Source: Actinomycetota bacterium
GTDB lineage: Bacteria > Actinomycetota > Actinomycetes > Streptosporangiales > Streptosporangiaceae
Assembly: GCA_027314515.1 (NCBI GenBank)
Contig: DAHVAR010000073.1
Coordinates: 62,001-126,000, forward strand
Reading direction: 5' to 3'
DNA: 64,000 nt
Shown here one piece after another: positions 9,804-13,490 of this stretch. The notes under the pieces are model-generated. The model was not told where the DNA came from and searched no databases. It saw nothing but the letters and a program-made list of their open reading frames with translations. Position numbers and translations under genes: made by a program. Each line of letters begins with the position of its first letter. Position 1 is the stretch's first letter.

Positions 9804-10120
9804 GTGACAATGAATGCACCCGCGCCCGCCCGAGAGGCTGCTGATAGCCCGATCATCGTCGTGGGCTCCGCGCATTGCGGCGTGCCTGTGCTGCGTCAAG
9901 CGCTCGTGGCTCAGCAGGGCGTTACCTGGATCGACGCGCCGGGCCTTGTTCACCTCGGCCATCAAGTTTCGAGGACATGGAGCAGGGTGGATGGTCGTCA
10001 AGGCAGAGTATCGGGGTTAGCGCGCGCAGCTATCAGCACGATGCTGCAGAGCATGATCGTCGGCCGCCTGGCGGCAGATGGTTGCCGGACATGGTCGGCA
10101 ACTACCGTGCCAGCGGAGCC

Positions 10121-10140
10121 TGTCAAACTGAATGAGACAT
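10121..10140 (+). repeat. IS3 left terminal inverted repeat
   Basis: TGTCAAACTGAATGAGACAT. It matches the other end (reverse complement of 11668-11688) over TGTCAAACT and TGAGACAT, with 3-4 unlike bases between. The orfB stop codon begins at its last base. Confidence 0.88.
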
Positions 10141-11174
10141 CAGGCGGCTGGGTTTGTTTGTGGCGCCTCCTGGGTTTCGATGGCCGCCCGGGGCTGGTTG
10201 ATCCAGACCTTGGCGGGCAGCCGGGGTGCTAGCGGGCGCTTGTGCTGGAAGCGGATCGGGCTGGCGGCGTAGGCCTGGTCGAGGACGTGCTGGCGGCGGG
10301 CCTGGATGGCCCAGGCGGTGCCGTCGTGGACGGAGGCCGGGGTGTGCAGGCCGATGCCGGAGTGCCGGTGCTCGTTGTTGTAGTAGTCGAAGAAAATGTC
10401 GCAGAAGTCGCGGGCCTGGCCGAGTGTTTCGAAGCTGCCGGGGAAGGCCGGGCAGTATTTGAGGGTCTTGAACTGCGCTTCTGAGTAGGGATTGTCATTC
10501 GATACGTGCGGCCGGGAGTGGCTGCGGCTGATCTTGAGGTCGGCCAGCAGGTCGGTGACTGTTTTGGAGGTCATCGAGGTGCCGTTGTCGGCGTGAATGC
10601 CGCCGGGGGCGGTACCGCCGTTGGCGGCGATGGCGTTGGTGATGAACTCCTTAGCCAGGTCACCGTTCTCGGTGGCGTGCACTTCCTGCCAGATGGCCTT
10701 GCGGGAGAAGATGTCCAGCATCACGTACAGGTCGAACCAGATGCCCCGCCACGGGCCTTTCAGCTTGGTGATATCCCACGACCATACTTGCGACGGGCCG
10801 GTGGCCACCAGCTCGGGCCGCACCCTCGGCGGGTGGGCGGCCTGGGCCCGCCGTTCCCGTACCTGCCCCTCGGCGCGCAGCACCCGGTACATGGTGGACA
10901 CGCTGGCCAGGTAGGTGCCCTCATCCAGCAGGATGGCCCAGGCCTGGGCCGGGGACTTGTCGGCGAACCGCTGGCTGTCAAGCACCGCCAGCAGCTGCTC
11001 TCGCTCCGCAACGGACAGGGCCGCGGGATGTGCCGCGCGGGAAGCCGGCGGCCTTTCCGGCTCCGGCACCGGATTGCGCTGCCGGTAGAGCGTGGCCCTC
11101 GGCTTGCCGAGCAGCCGGCACGCAATTGTCACCGAGGTGAGGGGTTCCAGCTCGGCGACCGCCTGGTCGATCAC
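10140..11174 (-). CDS. IS3-family transposase OrfB (DD35E integrase core)
   Basis: 344 residues. The N-terminal half contains an HTH_21-like region (YRVLRAEGQVRERR). The rve integrase core has all three catalytic residues: Asp in WSWDITKLKG, Asp in IHADNGTSM, and Glu in NPYSEAQFKTLKY. There are 35 residues between the second Asp and the Glu. It cuts and joins the element's ends. The GTG start at 11174 overlaps the orfA stop in GTGA, which suggests coupling rather than the classical -1 frameshift of many IS3 elements. Confidence 0.93.
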   Translation of the reverse strand: MIDQAVAELEPLTSVTIACRLLGKPRATLYRQRNPVPEPERPPASRAAHPAALSVAEREQLLAVLDSQRFADKSPAQAWAILLDEGTYLASVSTMYRVLRAEGQVRERRAQAAHPPRVRPELVATGPSQVWSWDITKLKGPWRGIWFDLYVMLDIFSRKAIWQEVHATENGDLAKEFITNAIAANGGTAPGGIHADNGTSMTSKTVTDLLADLKISRSHSRPHVSNDNPYSEAQFKTLKYCPAFPGSFETLGQARDFCDIFFDYYNNEHRHSGIGLHTPASVHDGTAWAIQARRQHVLDQAYAASPIRFQHKRPLAPRLPAKVWINQPRAAIETQEAPQTNPAA

Positions 11175-11602
11175 TTGCCCGGCCTCGTGCCGTAGTCCGC
11201 GCTCTCGGAGAGCAATTCCAAGAGCGCGTGTGCTTTTCCCACCACTTCCAGCGCCGCTTTGGTCCGGGCCAGTTCCGTGGCGAGTTTCTCGTTCTCCTTC
11301 CGCAGCCGCTCGTTCTCCACCTCCGCCTTGCTGCGCGACGGCCGCCCGGCCGGCTTTTCCGCCAGTGCTGTCAGCGCGCCCTTATCCCGCGCCGCCCGCC
11401 AGTACTCGATATGGGAGTGATACAGCCCCTCCCGGCGCAGCAGCGCGCCGCGCTCGGCCGGATCCTCCAGCTGCTCATACCGCTGGAGGATCTTCACCTT
11501 GTAGGCCGCAGTGAAAGTCCGCCGCTTCGGCTGGCCCGCCCGCGGGCCCCGCCTGGAGGTCACCCGCCCATCCTCGCGCGTCGCGGAGGCCATGTCTGCC
11601 AT
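11171..11602 (-). CDS. IS3-family transposase OrfA (HTH, leucine zipper)
   Basis: About 143 residues. A helix-turn-helix region (RTFTAAYKVKILQRYEQL, then LLRREGLYHSHIEYWRAAR) is followed by a coiled coil (VENERLRKENEKLATELARTK). This is the normal build of IS3 OrfA, which binds the element ends. ATG 11602 is used; a TTG at 11614 would add four residues and overlaps a TTGACA sequence. Confidence 0.9.
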   Translation of the reverse strand: MADMASATREDGRVTSRRGPRAGQPKRRTFTAAYKVKILQRYEQLEDPAERGALLRREGLYHSHIEYWRAARDKGALTALAEKPAGRPSRSKAEVENERLRKENEKLATELARTKAALEVVGKAHALLELLSESADYGTRPGK

Positions 11603-11667
11603 GGTCAGTGTCAATGTCTCGTGGGTCCCGTCTCGCCCTGCTCGCTACAGAGGTTTACCTCAGCCTC

Positions 11668-11688
11668 ATGTCTCACGGGAGTTTGACA
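11668..11688 (-). repeat. IS3 right terminal inverted repeat
   Basis: Read on the minus strand it is TGTCAAACTCCCGTGAGACAT, the partner of the left repeat at 10121-10140. The sulfotransferase frame resumes directly after it (GAG at 11689). Confidence 0.88.
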
Positions 11689-12239
11689 GAGAGGGCAGCG
11701 CCTCGCGCGGGCCTGGACTTCTTCGCGCGCACGTTCCCGTCCGCGAAATTCATCTGCCTGCATAGGCGCTGCGATGCGGTGATCAGGACTGTTCTTGCCG
11801 CACATCCGTGGGGGATCGTCGGGGACGGGACCGCGTTTCACAGCTTCGTCATGATGCATCCCTGGAGCCTGCCCGCAGCGGTGGCTGAGTACTGGGCTGC
11901 GCAGACCAAGGTGCTCAGCGACTTCGAGACTGACCATCCGGACAGAAGCCTGCGCGTGCGCTACGAAGACATGCTGACCTGCCCGGACGAGACTTCATCG
12001 CGGCTCGTCGGCTTCACCGGTTTGACATTGCGGATTGGCAGCAACGAGGCCACAGGGCCAACTGGCCGCGCTGTCGGCTCTGCCGGCGATACACTCCCGG
12101 CACCAAAACGTATCCCGCTAGAACTCGTAAGCCGGGTGAATACTTTGATGACGGTCTTGGGATACCCGACGCTCGAATCGGCGACGCAGTAGGCATGTCA
12201 AGACTCGGCGAGCTGCTGCAGGGAACCGGAGGATACGAC

Positions 12240-13490
12240 GTGGACGGCGCGAGCGAGCAGTCATTCGTGCAGTACTCACCTGCCCGCAGGGTCCGTCGGA
12301 TTATCTACTTCGCGCTCGGCGCAGCCTGCTTAGCGATAGCTAGCGGACTGATCGGAGTTTCGCTCGTCAAATCCCCTGCGCAGGTAGCGGCGGAGACGGC
12401 GCCGCCCACGCCAACCCTAATCACCGCGCCGGTAGTACACCAGGTGCTATCGGAAAGCGTCGTTATGCGGGGCACTCTCGCAGTTGGCAGATCACTGTCG
12501 TTTGCCCCGTCATCCGTCGCTTCGACGGCCGCCAATGCAGGTGGTGGCGGGATGGTGGTCACGGCGGTGAATGTCAGAAGCGGCGAGCGGATTCGCTCCG
12601 GCCAGGTCGTGGCAGAGGTTTCGGACCGTCCCGTATTCGTATTGCAGGGAAATCTTCCGCTCTGGCGCAACCTAATGCCAGGCGAGTCAGGTAAAGATGT
12701 CGCAGAGTTGCAGACGGCGCTGGCGGATCTCGGCTACTCCTCGGGTACCGATTCATATGGCTTCTTCGGAGCCGGGACTGAAGCCGCCGTGCGGGGGTTC
12801 TACCAGGGCATCGGATATGCTCCAGCGATAGAACCTCCGAGCAGCGTCAGTACCGCGACAGTGGGCGGCACCAGGGCGGGCACCAGGGCCGGGAAGACGT
12901 CGACAGCGAACCCGCCGGCAATAGTTCCGATGTCTGAGGCGTGGTTCGTTCCGTCACTTCCCGCTGAAGTTCTCTCCGTGCCGGCATACGTGGGAGAAGT
13001 GTCTGCGGCATCGCTGATGACCATCGCCGAGGGGTCGCTGCGGCTGACCGGCCAGTTGGATCCCTCCGAGGAATCTCTGGTAAAGGTCGGCCTGCATGTA
13101 TCGGTCTACTCGGACGTCACGGGGTATACCGGCACTGGCAAGATCTCTTCGATCGGCAGTCAGATCGTGCCCTCGGGACCTAACGGCGGCGCGTACGTGC
13201 CCATCTATATCAGGCCGCGTACCTTGTGGCCGACGTCACTGAACGGACAGAACGTGCAGATCACGATTACCGCGGTCACGACAGGACGGCCGGTGCTCGC
13301 AGTGCCTGTCGCCGCGGTTTCTTATGGCGCCTCCGGGCTGGCACAGGTGACTGTCAGGGGACCTGGCGGCGTGGAGAGAAGGGTTGCGGTGCGAACAGGC
13401 GTCTCGGCTGGCGGCTATGTCGAGATCACCGCTCTCGACGGCGGGGAGCGCGCGCTAGCCGCGGGAACGCAGGTCGTGGTGGGGCAGTGA
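12240..13490 (+). CDS. Membrane-fusion-type adaptor with peptidoglycan-binding domain
   Basis: About 416 residues. A transmembrane anchor lies at about residues 19-43 and is followed by an HlyD/MacA-like barrel region. A PG_binding_1-like domain (GESGKDVAELQTALADLGY ... GTEAAVRGFY) is inserted, then beta-rich C-terminal domains. Such proteins link an ABC exporter to the cell wall. GTG 12240 has GGAGG seven bases upstream and is preferred; ATG 12195 would add 15 residues directly after the sulfotransferase stop. It overlaps the ATPase gene in GTGA. Confidence 0.85.
   Translation: MDGASEQSFVQYSPARRVRRIIYFALGAACLAIASGLIGVSLVKSPAQVAAETAPPTPTLITAPVVHQVLSESVVMRGTLAVGRSLSFAPSSVASTAANAGGGGMVVTAVNVRSGERIRSGQVVAEVSDRPVFVLQGNLPLWRNLMPGESGKDVAELQTALADLGYSSGTDSYGFFGAGTEAAVRGFYQGIGYAPAIEPPSSVSTATVGGTRAGTRAGKTSTANPPAIVPMSEAWFVPSLPAEVLSVPAYVGEVSAASLMTIAEGSLRLTGQLDPSEESLVKVGLHVSVYSDVTGYTGTGKISSIGSQIVPSGPNGGAYVPIYIRPRTLWPTSLNGQNVQITITAVTTGRPVLAVPVAAVSYGASGLAQVTVRGPGGVERRVAVRTGVSAGGYVEITALDGGERALAAGTQVVVGQ

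Follow-up and report, generated by a model that had tools for sequence, protein, structure and literature searches.

A complete IS3-family element with non-TG tips and a 3-bp target duplication inside an actinobacterial sulfotransferase-like gene

Where does a mobile element end, what did it duplicate on arrival and what became of the gene that it entered? These questions are raised by a transposase-bearing element in the stretch of actinobacterial DNA analyzed here (the window, 64,000 nucleotides). A sequence-only reading had described an IS3 element inside a sulfotransferase gene, flanked by a partial 5-bp target duplication, GAGCC/GAGAG. We find that those bases belong to the element itself and that the duplication is an exact 3 bp, CAG/CAG. 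Our account of the locus, to which we give a probability of about 93%, is that of a complete, probably functional IS3-family insertion with CAG duplicated, an OrfAB transposase produced by frameshifting and a host gene that is very probably inactivated. The points against it are a narrow pass of the IS3 cut-off, the low identity of OrfB to IS2, IS3 and IS150, the non-TG tips, host-gene homologues no closer than 44% over the C-terminal half in place of a sister strain, an extra residue at the join of the host product, the fit of the flanks to a longer repeat (CAGCG) and a mild folding score for the predicted stem-loop.

The element is 1582 bp long (10114–11695), with its transposase on the minus strand, and its two genes, taken from the open reading frame (ORF) list, overlap. 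OrfA (11171–11614, minus strand; 147 aa) has a predicted helix-turn-helix and a coiled-coil-like region and on its own scores below the family cut-offs; OrfB (10140–11174, minus strand; 344 aa) lies in the −1 frame relative to OrfA and matches integrase-core profiles. In the window translation, the OrfB triad is intact, with D134 (10773–10775), D196 (10587–10589) and E232 (10479–10481), all on the minus strand, spaced D-61-D-35-E and followed by K239 at E+7, so that the earlier description of both genes and a full catalytic triad holds. The NCBIfam IS3 model (NF033516, transpos_IS3) narrowly accepts OrfB, at 161.1 bits against a cut-off of 160; this match, the two minus-strand ORFs and the Sulfotransfer_3 match of the host gene bear out the general identification of the locus. 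Membership in IS481 was rejected, as the curated model for that family scores OrfB at 90.1 bits against a cut-off of 224 and IS481 has one ORF, whereas the window element has two. A sequence search at E 0.01 found no solved structure for a relative of the transposase.

We defined the tips as the points where identity between copies of multicopy relatives stops, using 18 copies from five genomes, and then read them in the window. Three identical copies in one genome (G023) occupy different sites; they have in common a stretch that opens with CGGTACC ahead of TGTCA and closes with GAGAGGG behind TGACA, beyond which they diverge. On each side, 7 bp separate the TGTCA...TGACA core from the tips, which read 5'-CCCT...CCG-3' in transposase orientation, a rule that also applies in G122 (five copies), G135 (three), G395 (five) and G190 (two); five copies in G151 and G237 were kept outside the 18 because their shared stretch extends past the element. 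In the window, the terminal repeats are CCCTCTCTGTCAAACT on the OrfA side (11680–11695, minus strand) and CGGAGCCTGTCAAACT on the OrfB side (10114–10129, plus strand), agreeing at 11 of 16 positions with an exact 10-bp core, CTGTCAAACT. The matching ends of the earlier reading are thus real as a repeated core, but the true tips, 10114 and 11695, stand 7 bp further out. Immediately beyond them are the two copies of CAG (10111–10113 and 11696–11698).

Because the relatives' tips lie beyond the TGTCA...TGACA core, GAGCC and GAGAG are outer element bases. When the flanks were read in the five genomes, an exact 3-bp duplication stood at these tips in 15 of the 18 copies; given tips that are set by other genomes, all three flanking bases would agree by chance at roughly one site in 64. 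A second, pattern-based count started from 67 entries (66 loci plus the window), from which two without an OrfB match and four duplicates were dropped and 35 more lacked one or both ends by pattern (fragments, contig edges and variant tips). Among the 26 complete elements, window included, 19 had a 3-bp match, and 2000 rounds of shuffling the right flanks gave 1.03 matching elements on average and never more than 7. This count presupposes the tip pattern, whereas the count from identity boundaries does not.

These data bear on two other ways of drawing the ends. If the element ended at TGTCA...TGACA (10121–11688), with GAGCC/GAGAG as a decayed 5-bp duplication, it would have the TG...CA ends usual in the family (PMC6211511), and its excision would also restore the host frame: as the earlier reading had correctly noted of a 5-bp duplication, 1568 + 5 is 1 mod 3, which is equally true of 1582 + 3. 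The bases outside the core are, however, common to all copies of each multicopy relative, with exact duplications beyond them in the 15 of 18 copies above, and we rejected these ends, which are contradicted by both the identity boundaries and the shuffle test and which we regard as scarcely credible. Taken by itself, the window also fits a 5-bp duplication, CAGCG (10111–10115 and 11696–11700), exact in both copies, around an element of 1580 bp (10116–11695). Yet in all relatives with resolved ends the CG forms part of the CCG tip, and a duplication of 3 bp is preferred over one of 5 bp because a fourth or fifth flanking base matches in none of the 18 other elements that bear a 3-bp duplication; we consider CAGCG very unlikely to be the duplicated target.

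The main group shows no sign of a preference for palindromic targets, with a mean pairing score over 19 empty sites, including that of the window, of 5.0 versus 4.5 for shuffled partners. A distant relative with about 40–48% OrfB identity, present at four loci of one genome (L027, L032, L034 and L036 in G043), resembles the main group in its tips, likewise duplicates 3 bp and appears to have its copies placed in the loop of a palindrome, GGCGCG..tt.CCGG.GC-NNN-GC.CCGGaaa.CGCGCC, as if targeting REP-like hairpins.

A −1 ribosomal frameshift very probably yields OrfAB, to judge from a slippery heptamer in the OrfA frame, G_GGA_AAA (11234–11240, minus strand), and a stem-loop predicted by folding to begin 5 nt past it, with a 12-bp stem and a 7-nt loop (11198–11228, minus strand). 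GGGAAAA occurs in the correct frame in 14 of 18 distinct elements and is absent from L022, L040, L043 and L063; L077, with a match in another frame, was left out of this count by hand. The count accepts as OrfA any expected-frame stretch of 85 or more open codons, a lenient measure in high-GC DNA, and its 18 elements include two in which OrfA is degenerate (L040 and probably L043). Downstream of the heptamer, 13 of 14 stretches have folding z scores no higher than −1.5 relative to mononucleotide shuffles (L066 is unremarkable), and the stem arms vary among elements yet still pair, for example CGCGCTC/GAGCGCG versus CGTGCTC/GAGCACG. The 131-nt stretch of the window itself has a mild z of −1.79 against dinucleotide shuffles, 14 of 200 of which fold as well or better. 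By its conservation, we find the predicted frameshift signal convincing. The closest OrfB relative found, L040 (900–2600 in G220; 67% identity), is without a normal OrfA or slippery site, and the DNA upstream of its stem-loop remnant looks unrelated; it is seemingly a truncated copy.

Taken together, we propose that the element entered the sulfotransferase-like gene by ordinary IS3-type transposition, duplicating its 3-bp target, CAG, and splitting the gene at codon 104 of 267. OrfA would bind the element ends through its predicted helix-turn-helix, and OrfAB, arising at GGGAAAA with the help of the downstream stem-loop, would catalyze transposition through the DDE triad. We infer that the element is probably mobile.

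On the triad, the model match, the frame relation and the duplication, we assign the element to the IS3 family, in which its tips add to the departures from TG. Short target duplications of 3–5 bp are a family trait, 3 bp is usual for several IS3 groups and CAG/CAG agrees with both. The usual 5'-TG...CA-3' tips are not seen; in their place stand CCC.../CGG..., with the TGTCA core inset by 7 bp. Non-TG tips do not exclude membership, because exceptions are on record in IS1447 and at the left end of IS2. IS2, IS3 and IS150 of Escherichia coli K-12 share with the window element two overlapping ORFs, an OrfB in the −1 frame and a D-35-E integrase core; both ends of IS3 and of IS150, but only one of IS2, start with TG, in contrast to the CCC.../CGG... 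tips here, and OrfB is 22–27% identical to their counterparts over 152–220 residues. In the literature, a 3-bp duplication is mentioned for IS150 (PMC11708052), TG is given as the conserved IS3 tip, from which IS1447 departs with TA, and A6G-type slippery motifs are described as usual, unlike the GGGAAAA found here (PMC6211511). The same source describes the IS1447 group as Firmicutes-enriched and as using +1 transcriptional slippage on an A run. The window element resembles that group in departing from TG but differs in its signal, which points to −1 ribosomal frameshifting, and in the company that it keeps, the relatives found being mostly actinobacterial as a result of how the search was set up.

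A tree that included IS2, IS3 and IS150 drew very long branches for those three and yielded no subgroup assignment of use. No description of the CCCT...CCG tip type was found in the open-licence literature searched, and the part of PMC2516522 consulted holds nothing on this element group. Tips that depart from TG may set the element apart in an IS3 subgroup of its own. We also raise, as less likely than not, the idea of a widespread, undescribed actinobacterial subgroup that would be characterized by CCCT...CCG tips, a TGTCA core 7 bp in from the tip, target duplications of 3 bp, GGGAAAA conserved along with a stem-loop and an OrfB less than 30% identical to those of IS2, IS3 and IS150.

The host gene lies on the plus strand in two parts, placed by the ORF list and homologue alignment: an N-terminal part starting at GTG 9804 or ATG 9810 (9804–10113) and a C-terminal part whose first three bases are the second CAG (11696–12192). 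Removal of the element and one CAG leaves a frame of 267 codons. Pfam Sulfotransfer_3 (PF13469; cut-off 27 bits) matches the C-terminal part at 4.2e-11 (44 bits) and the rejoined product at 5.6e-12 (46.8 bits). The rejoined 267-aa product aligns from residue 8 to residue 262 or 265 with uninterrupted homologues in G008 (311 aa) and G010 (296 aa), at 33–34% identity, and in a ten-row alignment of the window with 9 of the 17 homologues found, all nine cross the insertion point in one frame; the window product has one extra residue, exactly at the join. The earlier statement that the host gene reads through once the element is removed is borne out, and none of the nine has the two halves as separate genes without the element. 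Uninterrupted homologues of about 34% identity were to be had; a close orthologue was not. Among 60 relatives, seven match at 1e-6, own genome counted, none of them a closer orthologue, and in a search of 341 genomes of the family, 11 match at 1e-20 (own included), the best other reaching 44% over the C-terminal half. Support for the empty site thus comes from homologues and not from a sister strain.

Sulfotransferases bind nucleotide through a P-loop motif, RSGS/T. This motif is present in the larger homologues of the alignment, is replaced by HCGV in the window product and is also altered in the five small homologues aligned. The window product passes the Sulfotransfer_3 cut-off but groups with these small (about 300 aa), P-loop-altered proteins, which suggests that it has the family sequence, perhaps without the activity. 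In five genomes (G008, G027, G010, G021 and G649; L068, L069, L070, L071 and L107), small sulfotransferase-like proteins with a P-loop of the form xSGV/A adjoin a larger canonical sulfotransferase, and the pair in G010 lies near an asparagine-synthase-like gene. The window gene encodes a small protein of this sort, and a search at the sensitivity of 1e-6 found no canonical partner in its genome.

We infer that the insertion very probably inactivates the host gene. An HlyD-like gene, identified by profile matches, begins 2 nt past it (12195–13490, plus strand) and is followed by genes for an ABC ATPase and a MacB-like permease, and this spacing makes polar effects on the export operon possible. 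The left host half stays open into the element for about 37 further codons, to a stop at 10232 (ORF 9804–10232). The host halves have a GC content of 64% and 63%, versus 70% for the window, and third-position GC is low in the HlyD-like gene as well; the operon may have been acquired. The right half is open from a GTG at 11608 within the element, and this frame (11608–12192) could be taken to mean that the insertion creates a new gene, with the C-terminal half expressed as a 194-aa product. Such ORFs are abundant in high-GC DNA, however, a halved sulfotransferase fold would hardly be stable, and a sigma-70 scan found no promoter-like site between 9500 and 12300, although it carries little weight in this organism. 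A new gene is highly improbable, and disruption of the old one is the reading that we keep.

The genome assembly holds one copy of the element, as counted from one full nucleotide match (plus a 42-base hit at 86%) and one OrfB match, although in 280 contigs this count may miss copies at contig breaks; the window element is one of four integrase-core (rve) matches. OrfB matches occur in 8 of 60 relatives at E 1e-40 or better and in 32 of 394 genomes of the class at 1e-90, own genome included in both, and eight other searched genomes of the genus have none at 1e-40. The G023 element (L023, L029 and L033) and other relatives in the class share the tips, a length of 1.54–1.60 kb, the 3-bp duplications and the slippery heptamer, but differ in that their OrfB is at most 67% identical to that of the window element. 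A contig search for related loci returned three, of which only L037 (Frankia) is close, and of 605 plasmid records that match OrfB at 1e-40, one reaches at least 60% identity (Embleya, 64.2%).

To the earlier reading the insertion looked recent. An exact duplication, two undamaged transposase ORFs and host halves that are open and fit together are consistent with this, although no near-identical empty site was found among the relatives, and the event is undatable because the nearest host-gene homologues are about 34% identical over their full length and 44% over the C-terminal half. Open frames are weak evidence of age at 70% GC. An old insertion into an already decaying gene, its halves open by chance at this GC, would suit the weak patterning of GC by codon position in the host halves, the many long antisense ORFs and the altered P-loop region. 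The duplication is exact, however, the transposase signal is intact and the alignment of the rejoined product with homologues runs from one end to the other; the P-loop is altered in small homologues elsewhere too, so that its alteration is not decay. We judge an old insertion unlikely; a recent one would fit better.

Beyond its ends, this is an ordinary case of gene disruption that may act with polarity on an export operon. The correct ends decide whether copies of this element type read as cleanly duplicated or as rearranged, and annotation from the TGTCA core would suggest lost or imperfect duplications where copies have exact ones.
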